NCBI GenBank assembly: GCA_010093605.1
Contig: MU004198.1
Span: 688,456-752,455, forward strand
Direction: 5' to 3'
Length of the DNA stretch: 64,000 bases
From: Lophium mytilinum
Lineage: Eukaryota > Ascomycota > Dothideomycetes > Mytilinidiales > Mytilinidiaceae
Positions 1,526 through 56,654 of this stretch are shown piece after piece. Both the position numbers and the translations under genes were made by a program. Position 1 is the first letter of the stretch. The number at the start of each line of letters is the position of its first letter. Under the pieces are notes generated by a model that saw only the letters and a list, made by a program, of their open reading frames with translations, was not told the DNA's origin and ran no database searches.

Positions 1526-3482
1526 TTTGGATGGGTCGATTGAAGTGATTATTTTTTGACTTGATGGTTCTGAAGGTCTTTATATTGGTTTACCCTTGTA
1601 CTGACGTAGAATAGTTCGGAGGAGCGGAGTTAAGGATGGTAAACTACGGCAGTTTGGCAATGGTGCTAAGGACACTATCTCCATCTCTGTCTTCACTTCC
1701 GCGGCACCTCCACCATATGCTTCCAGTCTTCACACTCCAGATTAACAATCGAAGTTCAGGTCAGGTTACATTCTGCAGTTTGCCTCCACTCCGCATTGCC
1801 GTATCAATCTCTAGATTGTCAGCTTACGAGGCTCTACCAGACCGATGCGTCATTGCTTTTCAAACGTCGCGTTTCCTGTCCACAATTTTCTACACCCATT
1901 GCATGAGCATTTTCTACTTTGCGACCATGATGGAAGATCATAGTGAATGAGTCGTCAGATTGAGCTTTGAGCTCGGAAATTGACCAGTCTCCCCGTGTAA
2001 GAAGCACGACTAAGGCAGACAGGCCCTTGAAACGTCGGGATAGGTTGAACGGATTAGTAGCTATCCCGACCGACGGAGGCTTGGACTGATTGATTAAATT
2101 TTAGAGATGTTGACATTGGTGTTTCAATAAATCGGCAATCCATCGGATGAGAACTAAACGGCTGATAGACCGCGCTGATGATTGTCTCGAGGACGCCCAA
2201 AGAGAAGGATCGCGGCTACCAATCCAGGCTACTTGCATTCACAAGCTCTTCAGGCTCTCCGTTCATATAGCTTGCTTACAGAACTGGCTCTTGCGGCTGA
2301 CTGGACGATCGGACTTAATGATCAATGGCTAGAACGTATTTGCATAATCTGAAGCTTCCCCTAAACACTTCTTTCCTCTATGAGCTGTACCCTACCGTTA
2401 CTTCTTTAATGAATTCAACAATTGCGGCCGACTCGATCTATTTCTTACCATTGGATAATGTTTTATGTCGTATCAAGGAGTCTTCAGGAGGCAATCCTGC
2501 CTCTGAGTCATCCCTTATCGACATTCATAGTCCCTCGCTTTCGCTCGCCCTCGCTAGCGGCTCAGTCTTGGATCCCAGCCAGAGAAGCTACACGTGGTTG
2601 GTTGAGCATTGTGAGTGGGAACCGTATAGAGGCATCTTGAGATATTTCAAGCTGGAACTCTAGGGAGACTCGAAGTACAGAACGATTCAGTGCAGGAAGC
2701 TGGCTGATATGTTAACGCTCAGGGCACTGTCTTTGCTGGCCTATCGGATCATTGGGCCAGATTCTTCGAATGTGTACCTGGCCGATGGCCCGATGGGAGT
2801 GAGGTTGAGACGCCAATTACCTGATGAGGACTCAATCGCGGTATCACTCTATTTGTCACGTTGCAAACTCGTCATTCTACGGTTCCTGAGATTTTGCTAC
2901 GTTTCTAGAGCACTGTATTTGGGCTCACGTTTACTATAGGCATTTATTTAACCAACACTATTGACTTAATGATCAAACAAACTAGTATTTAGTATCCTAC
3001 AAAGAAGGAGTTTCTTACGATTGTAATGTAGGACACAGGAAGTTTGATATATGAAACTCATGACTATATTACACCAGAAATAGAGGCTACGTATCTTGGT
3101 GAAAAGAAGAGGTTGGAAGGAGGTTGGAAGGGGGCTGGAAGGGGGCTGGAAGGGGGCTGGACGGGGGCTGGGAAGGCGACTATTGCCGATTTAACCAAGT
3201 AAATACTAAGCACTAGTCTAGTCTAGACCTCTTCAGTGGATACTAGCCCTCTATTCTATGCATACTAATTGCTAGCTTTCTTAATTATTTGTTTTGCCCC
3301 TCTTATAATCAATACGCGCTAGTCACTAGCTTCCTTCTAGCAAGTATATAAACCCCCTCTTTCCTTCAACTCCTTTAGTTCCTTATATTATATAGTAGGT
3401 TAAAAATTTAAGAGATAGTATATAGATAGTATCTAATATAGAGTTAAGGAGGATCTAAGATCCGGAGAGCTATATATAAAGC
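1526..3482. other. Intergenic, AT-rich in its second half
   Basis: No convincing gene is seen in this 2-kb stretch between the divergent AKR and DUF6604 genes. Open frames at 1636-1950 and 2325-2663 on the plus strand have no family resemblance that I recognise and no splice context. From about 2940 the sequence becomes TA-rich with repeated CTAGT/TAGTC words, which would fit repeat decay. A G-rich minisatellite sits at 3110-3176. The TATATATAAAG just before the ATG at 3483 is very close to the start codon and is probably leader rather than a TATA box. Confidence 0.5.
3110..3176. repeat. 11-bp G-rich minisatellite
   Basis: About five copies of an 11-bp unit, GGCTGGAAGGG, lie head to tail with small variants (TTGG at the first copies, GGAC in the fourth). 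It is strongly purine/G biased on the plus strand and lies in non-coding AT-rich sequence upstream of the DUF6604 gene. Confidence 0.8.
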
Positions 3483-6062
3483 ATGGCTTCACCCAGAACC
3501 AAAGACTCAGCTTTACTTCCCGACCAGATATTCTACACCTATAAGCAATACAAGTTCGACACAGAGGGCATTGGGGGCTGGATTGCGGACACCTGGAAAG
3601 AGTGCACCAACCGGACAGAAAAAGCACCAACAGAAAGATCTCCAAAGCTGAAGGGCAGAGCCCGAAAGCTTGCCAGAGACAATATCAACCAGAATGGGGC
3701 AGGAATAAAGAAAGAAAGATACATCATCAAGGTGTCTGACTTTGTTCCTATGGCACAAACGATAGTAGCGCATGAGCCAAAAGTCGCTGTGCCGCGGATC
3801 CTGAACAGGATGTTGACGAGAACTATCACGAATCGGCAACATTATGCAAACTGGATCACGGCCTCTGGCCAGCAAGACGAAGACAATTACGACCAACATT
3901 CCTATTTCATCGGCATTTTGGAAGATACGCTGCAGGTCCTTCAGCCCTTGTTCGATGCTCCTAGGCCCCCTCCTACACGCAAGGACAGTGAAGCAGAAAG
4001 CACCAAAGATATCGGATTTAAGCCTTCTGCATTCGACTGTTTGACTTTACACGACACCATCGAAGAAAACGACGATCCGAAGGGCGAGACAGGTGCCTCA
4101 ACTGAAGCCTCTCAATCTACGTTACCACAAGCTGCAATTGAACAGGATGAAAAGGGGGTCAAAGAAGATTTCCTGTTTGCCATTCAAAGCTTCTTGCTGG
4201 ATCTCCACAAGCTTCGAAATCATCTGGGCAAAACATGGGCTGCTTATCGACAAGGTCAAGTTGATCTCATGGCTGCCTCCGTCGTCACAAACTCTGCCAT
4301 TGGCTTGATTCGACAGTCTGAAGCGAAGCTCGAAAACACCATCAAGCGCCCGGAAGAATACCCCATTTCGACTTTCCCTACGTGGAGTTTACCCGCCATT
4401 CTATGCTTCGAGCTTGATCCTACAAAACACTTTAAAGCCCGAGAACGTATCAAGGCTATCCTGCCTTCGGGCAACTATGTTGCATATAAACGCCCGAAGA
4501 TAGAGGAATTCACGTTCTGGAAGGCGTATCAGGTCCTGAAAATTTACTCCTACCATACTGAGAAAGCCCGGCGTTTAAGTGGACAATTTGTTTCTTGTCA
4601 CGACCTCGACAAATGGATCGCGCCCTGCGAATCAGACTCGAACTATACCCGACTGATGAAGTGCCTCCCCGACATAGTCACGGCTGCTATGGGTCTCCAA
4701 CCCACGTATACTGAAGATAACTTCACGCGAGGACTTTTTCATCACATCACCAAAGAGCCAGAGATCCCCATATGGCTCACTTTCGCCGCTCAACTGTTCC
4801 TTGATATACAAGGCTGGCTCGGAGATAAGGTCTGCAATCCCTTCGCTGAACTCCAGAATACTGCTCGCCAGGCTTTGGAAGCTCATGAACAGCAATGCCT
4901 CTATTTCGAATCGCATCCAAAGGAGGACATACGGGTGCTTGAGCACTACCAAGAGATAGCCGCCAACATGAAAGAGCTCCGCGAACTGCTCATTGAAGAT
5001 AGAATCGGCAAGTTGCAAACTGAACTTCTAAAGCCAGCATACAAGAAGTTACGCAAGGCCTCACCCCCAAAGGACGGGCATCAATTCTTCCGCTCTCACC
5101 CACTGATATGCGGCCTCCTAAAGGCCGACATCTACAACCAACAACATCGATTCGGAATATGCCTAGCTACCGCGGACGGATCCACCATACGTATGGCGCA
5201 CCTGTACGTCGCAGCCAAGATCCTCCGGCCTGACACCCCAACGTGGCCAGACATGGAGCTCCTCATCCACTACCAAACCCCAGAATGGCTGTTCGTCGGC
5301 GGCCGGCCCGAAACGCTATCGAAAAGCTACACGAAGTACTTACTAGCAATGGCGACGTCACCTCGCGGCTTCGCAAAGGACAAACGGCCACATCATAGAA
5401 AGCTCAAGGTGGAAAAGATACGCGTGCTATCGAGCCAGAGCCCTGTTGCCGACCTAATACATCTCCACAACTACGAACGCCAAGACAAGAGTACCAAAGA
5501 TGTCGACACCAGCGGCGCCAATTTGAGGAAGATGCTGCTAGATGCTACTTTCCAGAAACGTCTCAAGCGTCAGATGGGATCAAGGGAAAAATCGATACCG
5601 GAGTCAATGTGGCAATCAGAGCCAAACAACCACTCGATGCCCGAGATATGCGACCTCTTGCATGTGGCTATGAAAGCGGAAATGCCCGATCTTTGCTTCG
5701 ACTGGTTCTCGATGCACCGCACTTGCCACGGAGCTATGCATGAGATTCGGGGTATGTGTGACTCTGACCCCAGGACTCTGAACCCGCAGAGAGATTGCGC
5801 AATGGCGATTCTGCAAGAAGCGGAATGGGCAGAGAGATCCACGGCAGCTGAAAAGTCCAAGCTGGCCGGCGCGCCAACGACAGAGATGATGGCACCTTTG
5901 CTGAGCGCTGTTGCGCACTTTATACGAGATATCTGTGAGCGTGGAGACGGTGATGTAGAGATTCGGAAGCTGTGGAATATTGGCCGCAGTGGAATAGGAG
6001 GACGGACGGATTATGGTAACTTTCTGTTTAACGGGGAGAGACTAGCGGAGCTAGTTCGTTAG
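3483..6062 (+). CDS. DUF6604-domain protein, 859 aa
   Basis: A single long uninterrupted frame of 859 codons. The N-terminus (LLPDQIFYTYKQYKFDTEG, residues about 11-29, then a WIADT segment) has the form of the fungal DUF6604 domain, which begins with an L-P-x-x-x-Y-x-x-Y-K-x-D-T pattern and covers roughly the first 250 residues. An acidic low-complexity linker (about 160-220) splits the N-terminal domain. The remainder is mostly helical, with no motif that I can assign. No signal peptide or membrane segment is obvious. Function is unknown; DUF6604 proteins are numerous and variable in ascomycetes. The gene is isolated, with 2 kb of AT-rich sequence upstream and 2.8 kb of repeat-rich sequence downstream, a setting typical of accessory genes. 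No intron is needed, and the start is the first ATG of the frame. Confidence 0.8.
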   Translation: MASPRTKDSALLPDQIFYTYKQYKFDTEGIGGWIADTWKECTNRTEKAPTERSPKLKGRARKLARDNINQNGAGIKKERYIIKVSDFVPMAQTIVAHEPKVAVPRILNRMLTRTITNRQHYANWITASGQQDEDNYDQHSYFIGILEDTLQVLQPLFDAPRPPPTRKDSEAESTKDIGFKPSAFDCLTLHDTIEENDDPKGETGASTEASQSTLPQAAIEQDEKGVKEDFLFAIQSFLLDLHKLRNHLGKTWAAYRQGQVDLMAASVVTNSAIGLIRQSEAKLENTIKRPEEYPISTFPTWSLPAILCFELDPTKHFKARERIKAILPSGNYVAYKRPKIEEFTFWKAYQVLKIYSYHTEKARRLSGQFVSCHDLDKWIAPCESDSNYTRLMKCLPDIVTAAMGLQPTYTEDNFTRGLFHHITKEPEIPIWLTFAAQLFLDIQGWLGDKVCNPFAELQNTARQALEAHEQQCLYFESHPKEDIRVLEHYQEIAANMKELRELLIEDRIGKLQTELLKPAYKKLRKASPPKDGHQFFRSHPLICGLLKADIYNQQHRFGICLATADGSTIRMAHLYVAAKILRPDTPTWPDMELLIHYQTPEWLFVGGRPETLSKSYTKYLLAMATSPRGFAKDKRPHHRKLKVEKIRVLSSQSPVADLIHLHNYERQDKSTKDVDTSGANLRKMLLDATFQKRLKRQMGSREKSIPESMWQSEPNNHSMPEICDLLHVAMKAEMPDLCFDWFSMHRTCHGAMHEIRGMCDSDPRTLNPQRDCAMAILQEAEWAERSTAAEKSKLAGAPTTEMMAPLLSAVAHFIRDICERGDGDVEIRKLWNIGRSGIGGRTDYGNFLFNGERLAELVR

Positions 6063-30687: not shown

Positions 30688-31155
30688 ATGCGCGCCCGCT
30701 CCATCGCCATCACCGCCCCCTCCGGCTTCACGCCCCTCCGCAACCAGCTCCTCTCGCCGACTTGGTTCGCGCCGCGTTGGAACCGGCGGAGTGCGCCTTC
30801 GCCCACCACACCGACGTTCGCTCAAACCAACTTCTGTCTCGCCGCGACCTTCACTCAGGCCACCTTCACCGAGCCCGCCTTCACCACCGAACCAGGCCGA
30901 AGCGCCATTGACGCGCGGATGATGGCGTTCCAGGCCCCGAAGCGTCGCAAGCTCAGCACCAGGGAGTTTGTGGAGGTGTTCCCAGCCGTGGAGGAGAGGG
31001 GGGATGCCGCTGGCACTGGAGTTTTGGTGGCGGAGGCACTTTCGGGATCTGGGGTGGTGGGGAAGGGGAAGGGGAAGGAGAAGGAGGAGGGGTGGGGATC
31101 GGGGAGTGAGGAGGGGAGTGAGGATAGTATGGAGATTGTGGGGGTGGATGTTTGA
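30688..31155 (+). CDS. Small hypothetical protein, 155 aa
   Basis: A 155-codon frame starting at an ATG in a good context (CAAAATG) after a TATA box and a CA-rich leader, which is why I accept it. The N-terminal half is rich in Thr, Ala, Phe and Pro (TFTQATFTEPAFTTEP). The middle has a basic patch (KRRKLSTREFVEVF) that could be a nuclear signal, and the C-terminus is highly acidic/Gly/Ser-rich (GSGSEEGSEDSMEIVGV). The family is not recognised. The tail is low complexity and ends right where the downstream repeats begin. It may be a nuclear protein, but this is only inference. Confidence 0.45.
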   Translation: MRARSIAITAPSGFTPLRNQLLSPTWFAPRWNRRSAPSPTTPTFAQTNFCLAATFTQATFTEPAFTTEPGRSAIDARMMAFQAPKRRKLSTREFVEVFPAVEERGDAAGTGVLVAEALSGSGVVGKGKGKEKEEGWGSGSEEGSEDSMEIVGVDV

Positions 31156-31250
31156 GCTGGTCTTGGCATGGGAATCAGTCTCTGAATATGAATCGAGCTA
31201 CTATGGATATGGATATGAGCTACTACTGCCTACGGTTTTGATGCTGGGTT

Positions 31251-31720
31251 GACACTGTGTGAGGTGGCTTAGTGAGGATTTCGGGGCGTGATATGTGTGG
31301 TTTGGAGGAGCTGGTGGGCTGGTTGGGGTACTTCTGACGGTGGTGGAGAGGTGTAGGTAGATGGCTAAGCTGGACGCGGTATGAATGTGAAGTATTAGTT
31401 GCTGCTGCTTGCACTCGTTTGATACTGCGTGAGGTGCCCTGGTGAGCTTGTAGGAATGTAATATATGTCGTTTTGACGACCTAGAAAGATAGCTGGGCCA
31501 CCTCAGACGGTGGTAAAGGGGTGTGTGCAGATGGCTGAGCTAGATGCAGCATCAGAATACAAACTACTTCCGTTTATTGCTTACACCTGTTTGATACTAT
31601 ATGAGGTACCCTGATGAGCTTCTAGGAATGTAATATACAACGTTTTGACAAGCTGGAAAAGTAGCTGGGTCACCTCAGACGTTGGTGGAGAAGTGCACAC
31701 AGATACTAAGTAAAGAACGG
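31251..31720 (+). repeat. Three degenerate tandem units of about 170 bp
   Basis: The motif GACACTGTGTGAGGTG and its variants GATACTGCGTGAGGTG and GATACTATATGAGGTA occur at 31251, 31421 and 31594, 170 and 173 bp apart. Each unit continues with GGAATGTAATATA-like and AGCTGGGYCACCTCAGACG-like segments. The block is non-coding and starts just after the small gene's 3' end. Confidence 0.7.
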
Positions 31721-32161
31721 ACATTTCTCTTCCTCGCGCATCACCTCAAATTACGTGTATTGTATCGCCATTTTGCAGTATAGGTTGCTACTAAAAGCGC
31801 TCCACGCATATGCAGATTTGAGCTACAGTCGATGTTATCTTTAGAGCTCGTGTATTAGTTACGCGCGTTCCGGAGTAAGAATTCTCTCCTCTTTATATAA
31901 GTAGCCTAGATTAAAACTATCCTTTCATCTATTTGGTAGTGTATGCAGGTATTTAAGACACCTCATACGTAACTAGCTTTAGGATAGGCCGATGTCATTT
32001 CCAGAGCTTGTGAATTGGATCCCTTTCTAGTGAGGCTAGATTTCCTTCCTATTCAATTAGGTAGCCTAAACTAGACCTATCATAGGGTTGTTTTAACGGT
32101 GTATGCATATATTTGAAGTACCCCATGCGTAATCCGCTTTGGAAGAAGGCCGATGTAATTC

Positions 32162-32353
32162 GTGCACGCCGATGCCCGTGGCCGTCGGCTTTTCGTCGCT
32201 CTCCAAGTCCGCCTAACGGATCCGAACGCTGTCGATACCGTTAGGCCTGCGATGACGAACGGATGCCTCGTCAATATAGATACTAGGCCTCTCGTGAGCG
32301 CTGGCTTAGCGGCGGAGATTAAGACGGCTATAGAGAACGAGGCGGTTGGATAA
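32162..32353 (+). other. GC-rich open segment inserted in the 161-bp array
   Basis: A 63-codon frame (starting MHADARGRRLFVALQV, ending IENEAVG) with much higher GC than the repeats around it. It begins exactly where the repeat unit at 32152 loses similarity after nine bases and ends where AAGTAGAGCTATTAGAGACC resumes repeat-like sequence. It is not recognised. It could be a gene fragment carried in, or chance coding potential. Confidence 0.3.
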
Positions 32354-33621
32354 GTAGAGCTATTAGAGACCATTCTCCATTTCAGCCTAGCTAAACATCG
32401 TGATTTTTATAGTTAGGATGGAAACACTACTCGATTGCGAGCACCCCCTTCGGCAGCGACCAGTTTTACTCTCCCTGCATAAGCCTATTAGAGAGGGCAA
32501 TAGTGCGTATGTACACATTTGAATTCAAAGACCTCAACGACGTTGTGGCGAGGTTAGAGACCTCAGAAATGTCTAAGCCTCGCGAATAAGATACCTGTGT
32601 TATAGAACTAGATTTTCTTCCCCTTTGGTTTAGCGGCTGAGATTAGTACTGAGCTCTTATCGTTCTGACGGCATATGCATGTGTTTGAAGTGCCTCACAC
32701 GTTACTAGCTTCAGGAGAAGGCCGATGTCATTTCCAGGGCTTGCGAATCAGAGTGCCCTTTTCCTAGATTTCGATTTCTTTCCTCTTTACTAGAAAGTTG
32801 AAATCAGATCCATCTAGTTATGTTTTCAACGTGTTTAATAGCTGCCCAATATGCGCTGTGCATAACCAGCTCCAGAACACAAGATATGTCATTTCCGGGG
32901 CTCGTGAATCAGATACCTGCTTTGCAGACGTGGATTCTCATCCTCCCTAGCTAAGTAGCGTAGATTAAGAGCACATTCTTATTTTTTTAATCTCCTAAAC
33001 AGCTACCTAGATCACTTCATGCATGACCAGCTTCCAAAAACAAAGTATGTTATTTCCAGGGCCTGTGAATCTAATGATCGTTTTACAGACCCGTCTTTCT
33101 GGTCTCTTTAGCTATATGACACATATCGTGAACACATCGTTATTGTCTTGATCTCCTGCACAGCTATCTAGACCACTTCATGCATAATCAGCTCTCAAAA
33201 ATAGAGCATGTGATTTCCAGGGCTGGTATATTAGACAGCTGCTGCGTGGGACCCTATTCCCTTCCTCTTTGGCTAAGTAGCCTAGATTAGAAGCATATCG
33301 TCATCGTTCTAACATCTTATGAAGCTATCTAGACCTCTTCATGCCTAGCCAGCCTTTAAAAATGGGGGATGTCATTTCCAGGGCTTGTATATCAGACACC
33401 CGCTATGCGGGGCCCGATTCCCTTCCTCTCTAGCCAAATGCCCTATATCAAATCTATCTCATTCCTATTTTGACAGCCTACACAGGTATTCAAGACCCCC
33501 CTTGCATTACTAGCTTCAACAAAGGCGCGATGTCATTTCCACTGATTGCATATTGGGTAGCGCTCATCTGAAGACCATTGCGGGACGCTGTAGTCTTCAA
33601 CCACCCCCCTCCCTCCCTCCA

Positions 33622-34124
33622 CCCTCTGCAGCCCTGAGTCTCAGCGTAAGCAATCTCTCCTCTTACGGTCAGCATATTCCGAGGATACGAGCGGTGCACG
33701 TCGAAAGAAAGCAAGACTGCCACCCGCCCCCAACCCAACAAGCCACTACCGGTTCAACGCTCCAGAACGCAAGTTCACGCCACTGAACTCGAAGACTCAT
33801 AAAATCGTGTCGAAGAGTCAGAAGTACAAGTCCCTGGTCAACAAAGCTGACGAGATAAAGCGAAGGGTCTTCGAGTTGAGGATGGTGTCTGCTCCGTCAT
33901 CCACAACACAAAAGAAGTAGAGGCTCGTCGAAAACAGTGACGAAGTCCGCAGCCATCGGTCCAAGGAGCACGAGGAGCAGATAGCGGTCTGGGAAGAAGG
34001 CCTGGAAGCCCATTACCAGGCGGTAAACGCTGCTGTAAATAGATTGAACGATTTCCATGCGAAGGAGGAGAGATCAGCCGGATATGCCTTAGATCAAAAC
34101 AGCTCGGCGGCGCCTCCTGGTTAG
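33622..34124 (+). pseudogene. Broken coding fragment (coiled-coil protein) inside the 161-bp array
   Basis: One frame reads from about 33622 (beginning near PSTLCSPESQRKQ) to a TAG at 34122 and is interrupted by an in-frame TAG at 33918-33920. Before the stop it encodes a basic part (ARRKKARLPPAPNPTSHYRF, then SKSQKYKSLVNKADEIKRRV). After the stop it encodes a heptad-like helix (SKEHEEQIAVWEEGLEAHYQ, then AVNRLNDFHAKEERSAG). Composition and heptads look like ancestral protein-coding sequence, unlike the flanking repeats. No start codon or splice sites were assigned and the family is not recognised. It separates repeat units anchored at 33529 and 34287. Confidence 0.5.
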
Positions 34125-34931
34125 ACGTTTGAAGGTTGCCACGAGGATTGGTTAGGTCGGGAGTATCTCAAAGCGTCCGGAGGTTGCAGTCTTCTACTTC
34201 AACGCAGTATCGGGAATCGGACGTGATGAGTTGCTGTTTTGATAGCGCGAGGAACCGCCTGGCTTCTCAGGCCCATCCATCTTCTTAATGCTATTTCCAA
34301 GGCTCGCAAATCAGGCTATTGCTTTTACTAGACCAGTCTCTCTTCCCTCTGGCTTACTAGCGGAGATTAAACGTGTCGAGTTGACGTTTTGACAGCGTTG
34401 TTCTATGTCTGTGGCTTCTCTGACTCACGCATGTTCTGGATGCTGACGATGTCATTTCCGAGGCTCGTAATTCAGGCTTGTGCCTGTTACATATCAGTTT
34501 CTCTTCCCTCTAGCCTAGTAGAGAAAATCAGACGTGCCGAGCTGGTCCCTTGACAGCGTTGGTAGATGTCTGTGGTTTCCCCAGCCCAGCAATCCTCTCG
34601 ATGCCTGCGATATCCATTCCCGAGGCTCGTGAATCTAGCTTTTGCTCTATGTATGCCAGTTTCGCGTCGCTCTGGCCCACTAGCGGGAATCAAGCGTGTC
34701 GACTTGCCATTTTGATAGCGTGGGTAACTATCCGTGGCTTCTCAGGCTCATCCGTCTTTCGAATGCTTACAATGTCAATCGCCGAAGCTCGTAAAACAGG
34801 CATTCGCAAGAGCTCGAACTCCTTCCCACACAAGGCGAGTTCATACCGGAAGGTTGTAGCATTCGCTCGCGTGGCCGCTCCAGAGATCCCAATAAATCAC
34901 CAATAATGCTCCTGTAGTCTTTCGGGCGCAT

Positions 34932-37305
34932 TTATGGATGAAGCGGCGAAGTAGATCTGCTCCTGGGACCTGGCCCCGGAACTCTCGGTGGATGATAGCC
35001 CTGCTGGATCAGGGCCCTGACTCTAGCAGTCGCATCCAAATTCCCCGCATTCGCTGCTTTACTGTACCACTCCACCGCTTGGTAAATATCGACGTCAACG
35101 TGCACACCAATCTCGTAGAAGTATCCCACGGCAAAAAGCGCCGTAGGAAGGTCCTGGTCAGCCGCTCTTTTCGCACGTGTGAAAGCGATTTCCTTATTGG
35201 CTTCAAAGACGCCCTCGTAGCCGACGAGAAACCATCTTGATAGGCTCATGTCTGCCTCTGGCTCCCCTTGGAGGGAGGCAAGCTCTAAGTAGTGCATCGA
35301 TAATGCTGGGTCGAACGGACAGCCTAAAGTGCACAGCTCGTAGGCCGATCCCATCTTTAGCTGAGCTTTCGCAAAACCAAGATATGCAGCTTTTTCTATG
35401 TTTTTACGGGCGGAAGCCAGGTCTTTAAGCTCCGGGGTCCTGAAGTGCGGTAAATCGTCCGCTTGGAGTAGACCAAGAACCTGGCCAAAGTATGAGCTTT
35501 CGAATACAGTTTTGGATCTCGAGCTTGCTTACATAGGCGGCTTGGGGAGCATACTCGTCGGCTCTCTGGGCAGCAGTCTTGATCAGCGGTATAGCCTTCG
35601 CGAAGTCTACCTTTTGATCGTGTTGCCCTAGAAACGCTATCATAGCCAGACGCTGAGAGATTGTCAGCAGGGTGGCAAAAGAATCGAAATGAATTGACCT
35701 TACGTAGCAGCACGCAGCGTCATTTTCCTTTCTGCCTCTCTCGTAGTATTCAATCGCTTTGGTCGGGTCGTTGCTGCTCTCATACATCATACCCATACGG
35801 TAAGCGGCTCGCATATATCCTTCTGATAGAGCATCTCTGTACAGGTGGAAAGCAGACCTTTTATTGACCCTATGGCCAAAGTGGCCAAACTCAAGCCATT
35901 TCCCTTTCTCGAAGTTTGCGTGGGGGTGTCCTTGTGCAACCAAAAAGTCGATGATATTCTTAGCATCAATCTCGAGCTGTGAACCCTCCACTGAGCTCTG
36001 GAAAGACGAATTCTTGGTGTCGCATACATTTCTTTCGCGCGAGTAACAAACAAGAAGCCAGTTTAAGGCATCACTAGCCCAGGCCAGCTGCATATCAGGG
36101 TCCACTGAGTACAGCACGAGTTCCCGTGCCCTCTCAATGACCCTGCCCTTTTCTTCGTGGGTAAGGGGCACATTTGGCGAGACTGGATCCGGTAGTTTTG
36201 GAAAAGAAGAGGGAAGTTCGTATATTTCTAAGCCGACAGGGGTGACACGGATCTCTGGCAGTGCTTCGGTCTTTTCATGGTATGTTGACGAAGGTGAATC
36301 CGGAGAGCTTCTAGTATGTGATCTTAGTTGAGCGGAAGCCTCTACTAATGTTTTCGGTACATCTTTCCTCCTTACGTTGAAAGTAGGTGTCACGGCTCGA
36401 CGATCGGAAGGCTCGCCGCCATCAGCCACATACTTGGGGCTTAATTGGAGACTTCCCATGCTTCTTTCAGCTTCAGAAATGCCATAGACATCCCTACCGC
36501 CTCGTGTCTCAGTTCGCTCTGGGTCTGGTGATCTCTGCGAGACCTTCTGCTGTGCAGCAACCAAGGCTCGTCTGTAGGCCTTCGAATTGACAATGATATC
36601 ATCGAACTCGAATTCCCTGCCATCAATTGTTGAAGTTGTATCCGCGACGTCACCGAATATGCTGTCTGGTGCACGCCTGCCCGAGAATATGGACTCAGCG
36701 ACGTTAAGTTTGGGGTTTGTTGCTCGTAGAGAGCGTGTGTCATCGGCGACGCGGTTCAGAACAGCGCTGTTCTGTTGTAATAGTCGCGTGATATCAGTCA
36801 AAGATTGCCTAAAGTAAGGGTTAGTAGGACGGCGTGAGGGGTTCAGATCAACTTACATTTGCAGACCCTGGATGAGTAACGTTAGAGCTGCCTGCTGTCC
36901 TCGTATCTGAGCGAGGTATTCCTTCATATTATCCTCATTCCCAGCAGCCTGCCTCTGGTCCTCCATCCAGGTCTTTGCGCAAAGTCTGATGGATCGACGT
37001 CGAGCTTCTGGATTTCATCGTCGAGACAGGCGTAGACGACGGCGCAGCCAGTCAAGGCGATATCCAAAGCAGAAACAAGCTCAGGCCTGGACCGCAGATA
37101 CACAGTCAGAGCATCCGTTATTCTGGAGAAAGAGGCCCTGGATGTTGGAGAGAGCAGCGCTGATTAGTATAGACTCAGAACACAAGGCTGCAATCGTAAT
37201 GTGAGCGTTTTTGAACTTGTGGCGCAACGTATCGAGAGTCTTGACTGTCTTAAGACATGCTGTCGTGATTTGAAGGACGCTCGCGGTCACCGAAAGAGGA
37301 TCCAT
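34932..37305 (-). CDS. Sel1-repeat protein with STAND-type fungal N-terminal domain; N-terminal frame disturbed
   Basis: The C-terminal two thirds contain Sel1-like helical repeats (AAYRMGMMYESSNDPTKAIEYY, AQLKMGSAYELCTLGCPFDP, ALFAVGYFYEIGVH then VDIYQAVEWYSKAANAGN), as in SKT5/Chs4-type scaffold proteins, after a disordered Ser-rich region. The N-terminus, MDPLSVTASVLQITTACLK, is the typical fungal N-terminal domain of STAND/NACHT proteins. Introns fit after LQ in IQGLQM, after DAACCY (51 nt, stop-free) and after QAAY (ends TTTGGCCAG). Between about 37,120 and 36,975 the family-like sequence (RSRPELVSALDIALTGC) is in the +1 frame relative to both sides. Two small compensating indels therefore seem to have hit the N-terminal domain, leaving stops in the main frame. 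Either the N-terminal domain is dead, or there are assembly errors, or translation starts downstream (MTDITRLLQQ in the next exon is unlikely). Confidence 0.6.
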
Positions 37306-39839: not shown

Positions 39840-42800
39840 ATGCCTGTTGTTAGCCCAGAAAAGCTGGTGTCGCTGCAGCATGCGGCCGCAGACGTCCGAA
39901 ATGTATACCCTCTGAAGAGCCCTCATAGCGGTTTACACGGACTAACTTTTCTTTTAGATATGCATCCTGGCTCACGTAGTATGTAGGACTGGTCTAATTT
40001 GCACTCTTTCCAACTGACGATGGTGCTAAGGACCATGGAAAAACCTCCCTCACCGATGCCCTCATCGCCACCAACGGCATCATCTCCCCGAAGTTGGCGG
40101 GAAAGATACGATACCTCGACTCAAGGCCAGACGAACAACTACGGGGCATCACGATGGAATCCTCAGCTATCTCACTATACTTCTCCCTATCACGGAAGAC
40201 CGCCCCAGACACGAGCCCAGAGCAGAAGGAATACTTAATAAATCTGATAGACTCGCCCGGCCATATTGACTTCAGCAGCGAAGTCTCCACCGCGTCGCGG
40301 CTATGTGACGGCGCAGTAGTGCTTGTAGATGCCGTTGAAGGCGTGTGTAGTCAGACGGTGACCGTATTGCGGCAGACATGGATCGAAAAACTCAAGCCAA
40401 TACTTGTCATTAACAAAATGGACCGACTAATCACAGAACTGAAGATGAGTCCGGGTGAGGCGTATACTCATCTCAGCAAGCTACTCGAACAAGTCAATGC
40501 CGTAATGGGCAGCTTCTTCCAAGGCGACCGAATGGAAGATGACCTCAAATGGAGAGAGAAAATGGAAGAGAAGATCAATGCCGCGGCCGAAAAAGCGCAA
40601 GAGAGAACTGACGGTATTAGCTCGTCCGTATTGGAGAATGGCGATGGCATCGACACTACCAACACGCCCGCTGAGTATGAGGAAAGGGATGACGAAGACA
40701 TTTACTTCTCCCCAGAAAACAATAACGTTATCTTTAGCAGTGCCATCGACGGATGGGCATTCACCGTCAAGCAATTCGCTGGTCTCTATGAGAAGAAGCT
40801 CGGAATCAAACGATCGGTACTCGAGAAGGTGCTCTGGGGCGACTTCTATCTAGATCCAAAGAACAAACGTGTATTGGGGTCGAAGCACCTCAAAGGCAGG
40901 AACTTAAAGCCGATGTTTGTCCAACTAGTCCTAGACAACATATGGGCTGTATACGACGCTACCACGGGCGGTGATCAAGGGAAGGGGTGCGTGGATCTCC
41001 TTATTCTTCTACAAGTCCTTGTTAAACATGTACATACACGATACGATCAGATACTTATTACTCCTCAACAGAGATCCTACCAAAGTAGAGAAAATCACCA
41101 AATCCCTATCCATAAAGCTCCCACCACACGTTCTCCGCTCTCGAGACCCAAGAGCCCTATTGACGACACTCTTCGCTGCTTGGCTCCCTCTGTCAACAGC
41201 GCTCCTAGTCTCAGTCATCGAATACCTCCCATCGCCACCCAAAGCGCAAGCTGCACGAATGACCGAACTTATCGACAACTCCCCCGGCTCCGACTTTGTC
41301 AGTCCAGAAGTTCGAAGCGCAATGACCAGCTTCAAAGCCTCAAAAGACGACCCAGTTGTCGCCTACGTGAGCAAAATGGTTGCCATCCCGGCCAGCGAGC
41401 TCCCCGAAAACAAGAGGCGCGGCGGTGGTGCACTCAGCGCCGAAGAAGCCCGCGAGCTCGGCCGCAAGAAACGTGCTGAGCTCGCACGCGTGCAAGCAGC
41501 TGCCAACGGCGGGAATTCTGTCGACCATCTCACCCAGGCCATCAGCAGCACCGCGATTGGAGAGCAAGAAAAAACAACCGAGTCCGAGTCCGCAGATTCA
41601 GCGGAAGAGGAGCATCTCATTGGCTTCGCACGCCTCTATTCTGGCACTCTCTCCGTTGGTGACGAGATCTACGTCCTTCCGCCCAAGTTCTCCCCAGCGA
41701 AACCGCACGCTCAACCTGAACCACCAAAAGTTACCATCACAGCACTCTATCTGCTTATGGGCCGCGGTCTAGAACCTCTCACCCACGTTCCCGCTGGTGT
41801 CGTCTTCGGTATTGGTGGTCTGGCAGGACACGTCCTGAAATCCGGGACACTTTGTTCGCAACTCGACGGCTCCGTCAATTTGGCTGGCATAAACATGGGC
41901 ACACAGCCTATTGTGCGGGTTGCTCTCGAACCAACGAACCCATCGGATCTAGGAAAGATGATCACTGGGCTGAAGCTGCTCGAGCAGAGCGATCCATGTG
42001 CTGAGTACGAGGTTTTGCAGAGCGGAGAGCATGTCATTCTCACGGCGGGCGAGCTGCATCTGGAGAGGTGTCTTAAGGACCTGAGGGAGAGATTTGCAAA
42101 GTGTGATATTCAAGCCGGAGCGCCCATCGTACCATACAGGGAGAGTATTGTCAGGGCAGAGGAGATGAATCCGCCCAGGGACAGGGACCTACCTAGAGGC
42201 ACGGTGATCGGTGTCACGACGTCTAAGCAGGTCACCCTCAAGCTGAGAGTGAGACCACTACCAGCAGCCGTGACCGAGTTCCTCGGGAACAACGCTGGCG
42301 CGATCAAGCGGCTATATTCTGAGAGCCGGGCTAAAGAAGAGCGAGAGCGGACCGGTGGTGATGACACACCTCCTGAGCAGGATGGAATGGAGGAGGCCGA
42401 GCCGCTGGAGACCGGCCACATTCTGAGCTTGGCAGACTTCAAAACGGAGCTGAAGAAAGCTTTTGCAGAGGCTAAGGGCGAGAAAGAGATTTGGAACGGG
42501 GTGATCGACAAGATAACAGCGTTTGGCCCACGAAGAGTCGGTCCTAACATCCTCATCGACGCAACCGCGCAGGGCATATGCGGCAAAGTGTAAGATTCTA
42601 CTCTATACTTTTCCAATCTCAATGCACAACACTAATTCTCCCAGTCTCCGCGACTCTTCTTCCCCAACTTCAGATTTGTCAACACCGTCAGACAACGCAG
42701 CCCTCACCGACAAAATCGCTTACGCCTTCCAACTCACCACCGCCGCCGGCCCCCTGTGCGCTGAGCCCGTCCAAGGCATCGCCGTCTTCCTCGAAGACCT

Positions 42801-55225: not shown

Positions 55226-56654
55226 GATGAAGATTGTAGGGAAAATGAGCTTCACGGGTGGAGAGAGCTACATTTTTGTTTGTCGCGCGTGGGCAACCCG
55301 CCAGGTGAGGGTCACGCTGCAGGCGGGCGGTCTCTTGAGGCCGCACAATCGACCTCGAAATTCCGAGATCTCAGTAATTTCAGCATTTAATCGTGATGAT
55401 CATCGCATTCAGAGGCTACCGAAACAGCTCAGCAGGCTGGTTAAACTAAATAAGTCACTGCAGGCAACAGATGGTGCAACCCGACAACGAAAGCGAGAAG
55501 ACCATCACCCCCAAGAGCCAGCGACGATATGCTTCCCAACACCGCGATGATCCTGCGGCCCCAAAAGGCAGGCGAAAGAGAATTTCTTCTTCGAAGCCCC
55601 AGACAAGCTGAGAAGTTCAATGAAAAAAGAAGCAAACAGAAGAGTTCGCGTCGGCCCGAGGCAGTGCAATACGAGCGACACTGTGTTCCTGAACATAGGC
55701 AAGCCCAGCGGCCCAGGAACAGTTTCCAAAGACTGGATTAATCTTGAGAGATCCCGTAGGATCGTTTCAGAGATTAAACTGAAAAGAACAGATACTACAC
55801 TTGATCTAAGCCAAAAGGCACTGGAATATTTGTTAGCAAAGGCACAGAATTTTGGGGGGAGGGGTCCACGAACAAGAGAGCTAAGAAAAAGAAGGAAGGA
55901 CCGGGGCCAGGCTGGTTCATGTACTCGAAAAAAATTCTCGGCTTGGCGCTTACTCATCAGCGCTAGGCCGTTTAACGGAGGACATTTTAATCGGGGCTAC
56001 AGGGCCCCACAGCTGCTGCCTACTATGTAAAGTGAGGCTAGGTAATGGAATGTCCGTGGAACTGCGCACGCTCTTTACACGTGACTACTTCTTAGAAAGC
56101 TCAATTTATCTATTTCACTTTAGTCCCAATATGCAAATGGGATTCTATGGTATTGGAAGTTCTGCCATCAAATTTTCGAATCCCAAACGTTATGGTTCTT
56201 CCCAATGCCATTTACGCGAATACTAATGCTATCCACCGTGCAAAAGCAGTGTTCAGATGCATAAAATCTTAATTAGATCTTAAAGAATCGGGAACAGTTC
56301 AAGGTCTTCTATATTCCACCCTTTGGCGATCTAGATACTATCTAAGTCGAGATTGAATGCTGATTGTCATGTGCCTGATTTAAAATCCAGAGCTCTGATT
56401 TACGCGCTTTAAAATATCACATCGTCGCTTCGAAGCCTTGCACCTTTCCATGTCATACTTTGGCCGCGGCCCTGTTCTCTTTGATGGTTTGGGACATCGC
56501 GTTAAAGTATACACGACATGCCGGCCCAGATCTATCTTGCAAGAGAAGTTTTACGACCTCTCTACCGAATCCGTACCTTCGCCTCCGCAGAAAACCGTAG
56601 GAATTTTTACTGCGCAATTCGAGTTCTTCATGACGTGCCCAAACGTTATACTTC
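55226..56654. other. Intergenic with weak open frames
   Basis: 1.4 kb. A plus-strand frame at 55620-56030 has fairly protein-like sequence (VSKDWINLERSRRIVSEIKL, LSQKALEYLLAKAQNF), but overlapping frames exist on both strands, no family is recognised and no promoter features are clear. I do not call it a gene. From 56,040 the sequence is TA-rich and non-coding. Confidence 0.35.

Follow-up and report, generated by a model that had tools for sequence, protein, structure and literature searches.

The repeats between 31706 and 34808 of this stretch of the Lophium mytilinum genome are probably an old, non-coding tandem array confined to a single locus, whose units are no longer homogenised and have been diverging through ordinary point mutation. 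The window we analysed is 64,000 nucleotides long (C18:688456-752455) and lies on a 1.52-Mb contig of a genome of 43.18 Mb in 24 contigs. The array within it runs head to tail at a constant period beyond chance. A 161-bp period had been proposed from the letters of the DNA, and autocorrelation confirmed it: over 31745-34830 the top value was at lag 161 (z 16.3), with z 9.8 at lag 322, and over 32600-33560 lag 161 reached z 22.0 at 60% identity. In 37 other 3-kb windows used as a control, the highest z at lags 5-399 was 8.3, at lag 21. Tandem Repeats Finder at its default score did not report the array. The anatomy of the locus was obtained from a cyclic profile path through 30900-35300, and the features are listed below with the evidence on which they were placed.

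30688-31155, plus strand: left flank, a putative gene (ORF of 155 aa) with no Pfam match.
31236-31704, plus strand: diverged left relative of the array, three units with a period of 170 and then 172 bp (repeat search, alignment A2, autocorrelation, profile score).
31706-32160, plus strand: first 161-bp block, comprising one partial unit, whole units at 31813 and 31974, and the first 27 positions of a third (profile path, profile matches).
31831-31859, plus strand: first clear copy of a conserved 29-bp core (core matches of at least 16/29, conservation clustering); later copies start, also on the plus strand, at 31991, 32563, 32724, 32885, 33046, 33207, 33368, 33529, 34287, 34448 and 34610.
32161-32555, no strand: non-repeat stretch 1, 395 bp, inside a unit (profile path; break between model positions 27 and 12).
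32556-33577, plus strand: central 161-bp block, in register and with no indel detected (autocorrelation, profile matches, path, offset windows).
33578-34189, no strand: non-repeat stretch 2, 612 bp, inside a unit (profile path; break between model positions 67 and 72).
34190-34808, plus strand: right 161-bp block, a separate clade of units with a period of 161-162 bp (repeat search, profile matches, path, offset windows; tree support 100).
34932-36801, minus strand: right flank, an open stretch at 34932-35528 that overlaps another at 35425-36801, the latter with a Sel1 match below the cut-off.

Together, the 161-bp and 170/172-bp arrays occupy most of the gap between the end of the left ORF (31155) and the end of the putative Sel1-like gene (34932). 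The Sel1 match on 35425-36801 scored 25.3 bits, under the Pfam cut-off of 30.7; the Pfam scan covered that stretch, and the resemblance of 34932-35528 to Sel1 repeats was seen by eye only. Both right-flank stretches may belong to one spliced Sel1-repeat gene that ends at 34932. The surroundings of the array look gene-rich, with Pfam domains in 12 of the 17 ORFs scanned within the window, a fungal transcription-factor domain among them. The window also holds a U2 spliceosomal RNA gene (55640-55831, minus strand, 133.8 bits) and an ORF at 40094-41479 (plus strand) whose top PDB match is elongation factor Tu GTP-binding domain-containing protein 1 (E 1.1e-87).

The register of the units was measured without alignment, by seeking within 12 bases the preferred offset of overlapping 50-bp windows. 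In the central block 76 of 81 windows had their best offset at exactly 161, and the counts at exactly 322 and 483 were 61 of 65 and 47 of 49; at random places, lag 161 was preferred in 28 of 400. The right block is shifted by +1, with 161 preferred in 15 of 32 windows and 322 in 0 of 16. A profile built from 11 units gave 18 matches at E<=10, namely the 11 source units, which score 82-103 bits as their part in its construction dictates, and seven weaker matches, four of them with E<0.01. The sequence-only reading had counted fourteen anchors of a common motif spaced by 160-162 bp, mostly 161. Its spacing is borne out within blocks (160 once, 161 seven times, 162 once), and its count comes down to 12 at a cut-off of at least 16/29: on the plus strand of 31700-34830 there are 13 such starts, one of which, at 31717, is out of register. 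As background at this cut-off, the plus strand beyond the array has 33 matches in ~60000 positions, and the minus strand has 44 over its full length. The same reading took indels to be absent. This holds in 32556-33577, but the whole path contains six small gaps: -1 at 31776, -1 at 31987, -2 at 34261, -9 at 34288, +1 at 34614 and +1 at 34777, of which the -2 and the -9 fall in badly aligned sequence.

The left relative shows that unit length at this locus is not always 161, since a related array that adjoins the first block has a period of 170/172. Autocorrelation over 31160-31740 gave z 8.8 at lag 172, none of 27 offset windows in 31236-31704 fitted 161 and most of them preferred +9, and the two outer units share 66% and 79% of their letters with the middle one. 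One of these units matches positions 114-156 of the 161-bp profile at 14.6 bits and another matches positions 115-158 at 8.4 bits, and the profile path likewise reaches into the block at 31466-31509. Among 1000 Markov shuffles the top score against the same profile was 6.7 bits. The two arrays thus have ~43 bp in common, and their subfamilies differ in unit length. The left block has fewer units, yet it holds gaps (170 against 172; alignment A2).

Divergence was followed in an alignment of eleven units whose ends were set manually according to the register (A1, 162 columns), in which the first ~20 columns of u3 and u9 align poorly. Adjacent units, in eight pairs, are 44-68% identical, and all pairs 40-68%. 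Of the 506 differences between adjacent units, transitions make up 306 and transversions 200. Under K2P+G4 the branches of the best tree sum to 4.43 substitutions per site, equivalent to ~714 across the 161 positions. The units of the right block group as a clade (support 100) and are closest to one another; four left branches have support of 32-58.

Decay by point mutation only had been proposed earlier, with repeat-induced point mutation (RIP) as an example. The first part is supported, with very few indels; the second is not, the spectrum being symmetric and without CpA preference. Rates of change from the consensus were 0.174 for C>T and 0.148 for T>C, 0.145 for G>A and 0.136 for A>G, and C>T by next base was 18/88 at CA, 22/121 at CT and 6/44 at CC. 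The central units taken alone lean slightly towards C>T (0.20, with T>C at 0.129) and G>A (0.15, with A>G at 0.132), and CpA is again not favoured (CA 11/70, CT 14/95, CC 10/50, CG 4/20). We consider it extremely unlikely that the units decayed, free of indels, through RIP or some other C-to-T process directed at repeats. The genome does have matches to the DNA-methylase domain (PF00145, four at three places), which together with one AT-rich contig end (28.7% GC, L020) means that RIP may act in this fungus, and CpG observed/expected at 32545-33560 is 0.59, against 0.94 in the window. Against it stand the similar rates of C>T and T>C, the lack of a CpA context, the 200 transversions in 506 adjacent differences, and a base composition without strong AT enrichment (GC 0.44-0.50 and TA/AT index 0.76-1.01 in the 161-bp blocks; 0.51 and 0.77 in the window). 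CpG observed/expected in the left block is 0.61. At 32545-33560 the CA+TG index is 1.48, against 1.19 in the window, yet the changes between units have no CpG direction.

The decay is uneven along the unit. Twenty columns from position 20 have a mean majority share of 0.84, against 0.66 overall, a value that none of 5000 column permutations reached. Identity in the 29-bp core exceeds that of the rest within left units (0.72 against 0.51), within right units (0.76 against 0.64) and between left and right (0.66 against 0.40). Giving the 29 core columns and the rest separate rates, instead of equal branch lengths, raises the fit by 12.5 log units; this was computed for a single topology, with the core picked on the same data. 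These observations bear on a functional alternative, in which a protein would bind the core, the 161-bp spacing would set one nucleosome (or protein) per unit, and selection would remove indels and tolerate substitutions outside the core. The sequence-only reading had put 161 bp close to one nucleosome repeat of fungi and suggested that the array might phase nucleosomes or seed heterochromatin. We regard such a functional phased array as unlikely. It accounts for the higher identity of the core in all three comparisons and for the few indels, and a window picked on the left units also stood out when tested in the right units (0.77 against 0.64, rank 5 of 161). That last test is marginal (permutation p 0.049), though, and over all columns identity among left units shows no correlation with identity among right units (r 0.05, p 0.24). 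Columns differ only mildly in rate (gamma shape ~5, gain 3.6 log units), the sister block has a period of 170-172, and the array occurs at one locus only. The 10-bp periodicity of A/T (WW) dinucleotides is also absent from 31745-33560, stretch 1 included (the value at 10.4 bp is 2.04, and the window's 95th percentile is 5.2). The case for a constrained 29-bp core is thus moderate, and we see none for constraint across the whole unit. Pol III B-box and A-box elements were considered as counterparts of the core and a second conserved patch, and were set aside on account of the wrong order and spacing and the absence of a tRNA call.

How few indels should be expected was judged from yeast. According to the accessible part of PMC4704713, diploid S. 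cerevisiae has an indel rate of 0.05e-10 and an implied substitution rate near 1.7e-10 (~1:34), the two rates are about equal in S. pombe, and yeast indels fall mostly in low-complexity sequence. At a ratio of 1:33, 714 substitutions would bring ~22 indels, and seven or fewer has a Poisson probability of 2.5e-4, in a comparison that counts substitutions on 11 units and gaps on the whole path and takes its ratio from a different species. The array seems poor in low-complexity sequence, so the yeast-based expectation may be too high, and compensating indels within a unit, or units out of register, could go unseen in the count. With six small gaps against ~714 substitutions, gaps are scarcer than the lowest yeast ratio seen predicts, which is suggestive, and selection on unit length is possible. 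The uneven decay at the core and the fewer gaps than the yeast ratio predicts point to some constraint, and to that extent argue against a plain relic. A single-locus intergenic phasing element, in which some 15 complete or partial units would all carry a putative protein-binding 29-bp core and keep a selected spacing near one fungal nucleosome repeat, with most of the sequence drifting, is nonetheless quite unlikely.

The units of the array are non-coding. A period of 161 is not a multiple of 3, and conservation has no 3-base pattern, either overall (p 0.45) or in sliding windows (p 0.99). The longest open frames are shorter than the shuffle means in the first block (36 against 58.5 codons) and in the central block (60 against 85.5), and a coding origin was rejected for the central block. 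Descent from a repeated gene (protein repeats, or an exon and intron repeated together) or from non-coding RNA genes in tandem is very unlikely; the observation in its favour is an open stretch of 130 codons in the right block (34514-34906), which has p 0.10 against shuffles. Pfam was searched with six translations, of which three came from the interrupting stretches, two from the right block and one from sequence that crosses into the central block; the lowest E value was 0.071, and every match fell under the cut-off. As to RNA genes, Rfam at gathering score found only U2 in the window and nothing at E<=2 in 31-35 kb, no tRNA was found, and the consensus RNA fold of the units consists of six weak pairs (-0.64 kcal/mol), two of which show two-sided change. 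A coding tandem repeat and an array of structured ncRNA genes were both discarded on these results.

The array also appears to stand alone in the genome. DNA queries made from the first, central, right and left (170-172) blocks and from a typed composite matched nothing but the array in the 43-Mb genome, in a search that scored the best candidates only and skipped common words, so that very diverged relatives may be missed. The core pattern with up to three mismatches has four matches in the genome, all in the array (a backward control gave 0), and a profile search of 20 sampled regions (198 kb, of which 23 kb are N) returned two matches, with E 4.2 and 4.8. The four contig starts that were fetched (L010, L020, L024, L029) contain 6455, 0, 6367 and 10000 N in 10000 bases, and three of them are AT-rich, with GC of 33.9, 28.7 (L020) and 36.9%. 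One sampled region (L026, C2:2000001-2010000) shows autocorrelation periods of 216 and 150, multiples of 3, at 2000-4500; by eye it looks like a repetitive protein gene, with no long simple ORF listed there.

In another alternative the array would be the internal tandem repeats of a decayed mobile element. Some elements do carry such repeats, the Helentron-borne repeats of oyster being an example in the available portion of PMC7492417. This origin is highly improbable here: no dispersed copy of the array, nor a second copy of either stretch, was found with the genome DNA queries, and the six scanned pieces had no domain match. Protein pieces of the stretches found no second copy either, apart from one match at 30% identity (E 0.27) that was set aside. 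Terminal inverted repeats on the stretches are not significant (p 0.17 and 0.98), nor is a direct repeat at the ends of stretch 1 (p 0.95). An imperfect direct repeat of ~36 bp does lie near the ends of stretch 2 (33566-33601 and ~34164-34197; 0 of 1000 shuffles), and it may simply represent the unit that stretch 2 splits, one half on either side. A gene-fragment origin of the stretches found no support, as their longest open frames do not exceed those of shuffles (p 0.29 for stretch 1, p 0.41 for stretch 2) and the searches above gave no second copy.

Under the preferred reading of an old array in decay, a unit of ~161 bp, with its 170-172-bp relative beside it, would have been amplified between two genes, by unequal exchange or replication slippage in all likelihood. 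Exchange between copies would then have ceased and each unit diverged singly by ordinary point mutation, as the symmetric, transition-leaning changes and the right-block clade show. The register lasted with small indels rare relative to substitutions, a rarity that could stem from low mutational supply and chance or from weak constraint on the 29-bp core and its spacing. Two unrelated stretches of DNA now lie within units. If the array is only a relic, it documents clearly the ageing of tandem repeats after exchange ends, with substitutions accumulating, the register persisting and a standard repeat finder blind to the result. If the spacing is selected, it would be a natural case of DNA length, more than sequence, as a conserved trait.

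No fungal array of this kind, nor the phrase '161-bp tandem repeat', was found in the open-licence literature as far as its text was available, which is weak evidence. Among known systems, alpha satellite is a nucleosome-length satellite DNA. The array resembles such DNA, as portrayed in the accessible part of PMC8122249, in its head-to-tail non-coding units of roughly nucleosomal length and in subfamilies that occupy separate blocks; satellites are described there as abundant repeats of centromeric, pericentromeric or telomeric regions. In contrast, the array measures ~3 kb, sits, as far as the genome queries reach, at one locus among genes (12 of 17 scanned ORFs with Pfam domains) and has units that are 40-68% identical and without homogenisation, and it is therefore not classical satellite DNA with its abundant homogenised copies. 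RIP-mutated repeats of filamentous ascomycetes are marked by directional C:G to T:A change, usually at CpA. The array shares with them its occurrence in a fungus and an excess of transitions over transversions, but it lacks the C-to-T direction, the CpA context and the strong AT enrichment, and spectrum and context together exclude it from that class. Degenerate intergenic tandem repeats are a general class of short, old, few-copy arrays between genes, and the array is like them in all of these respects; it differs in its register over ~six units, in neighbours that are 44-68% identical and in its more conserved core. The type is thus known in general, as a tandem array that is no longer homogenised, and what is unusual in this example is the persistence of the register together with the more conserved core.
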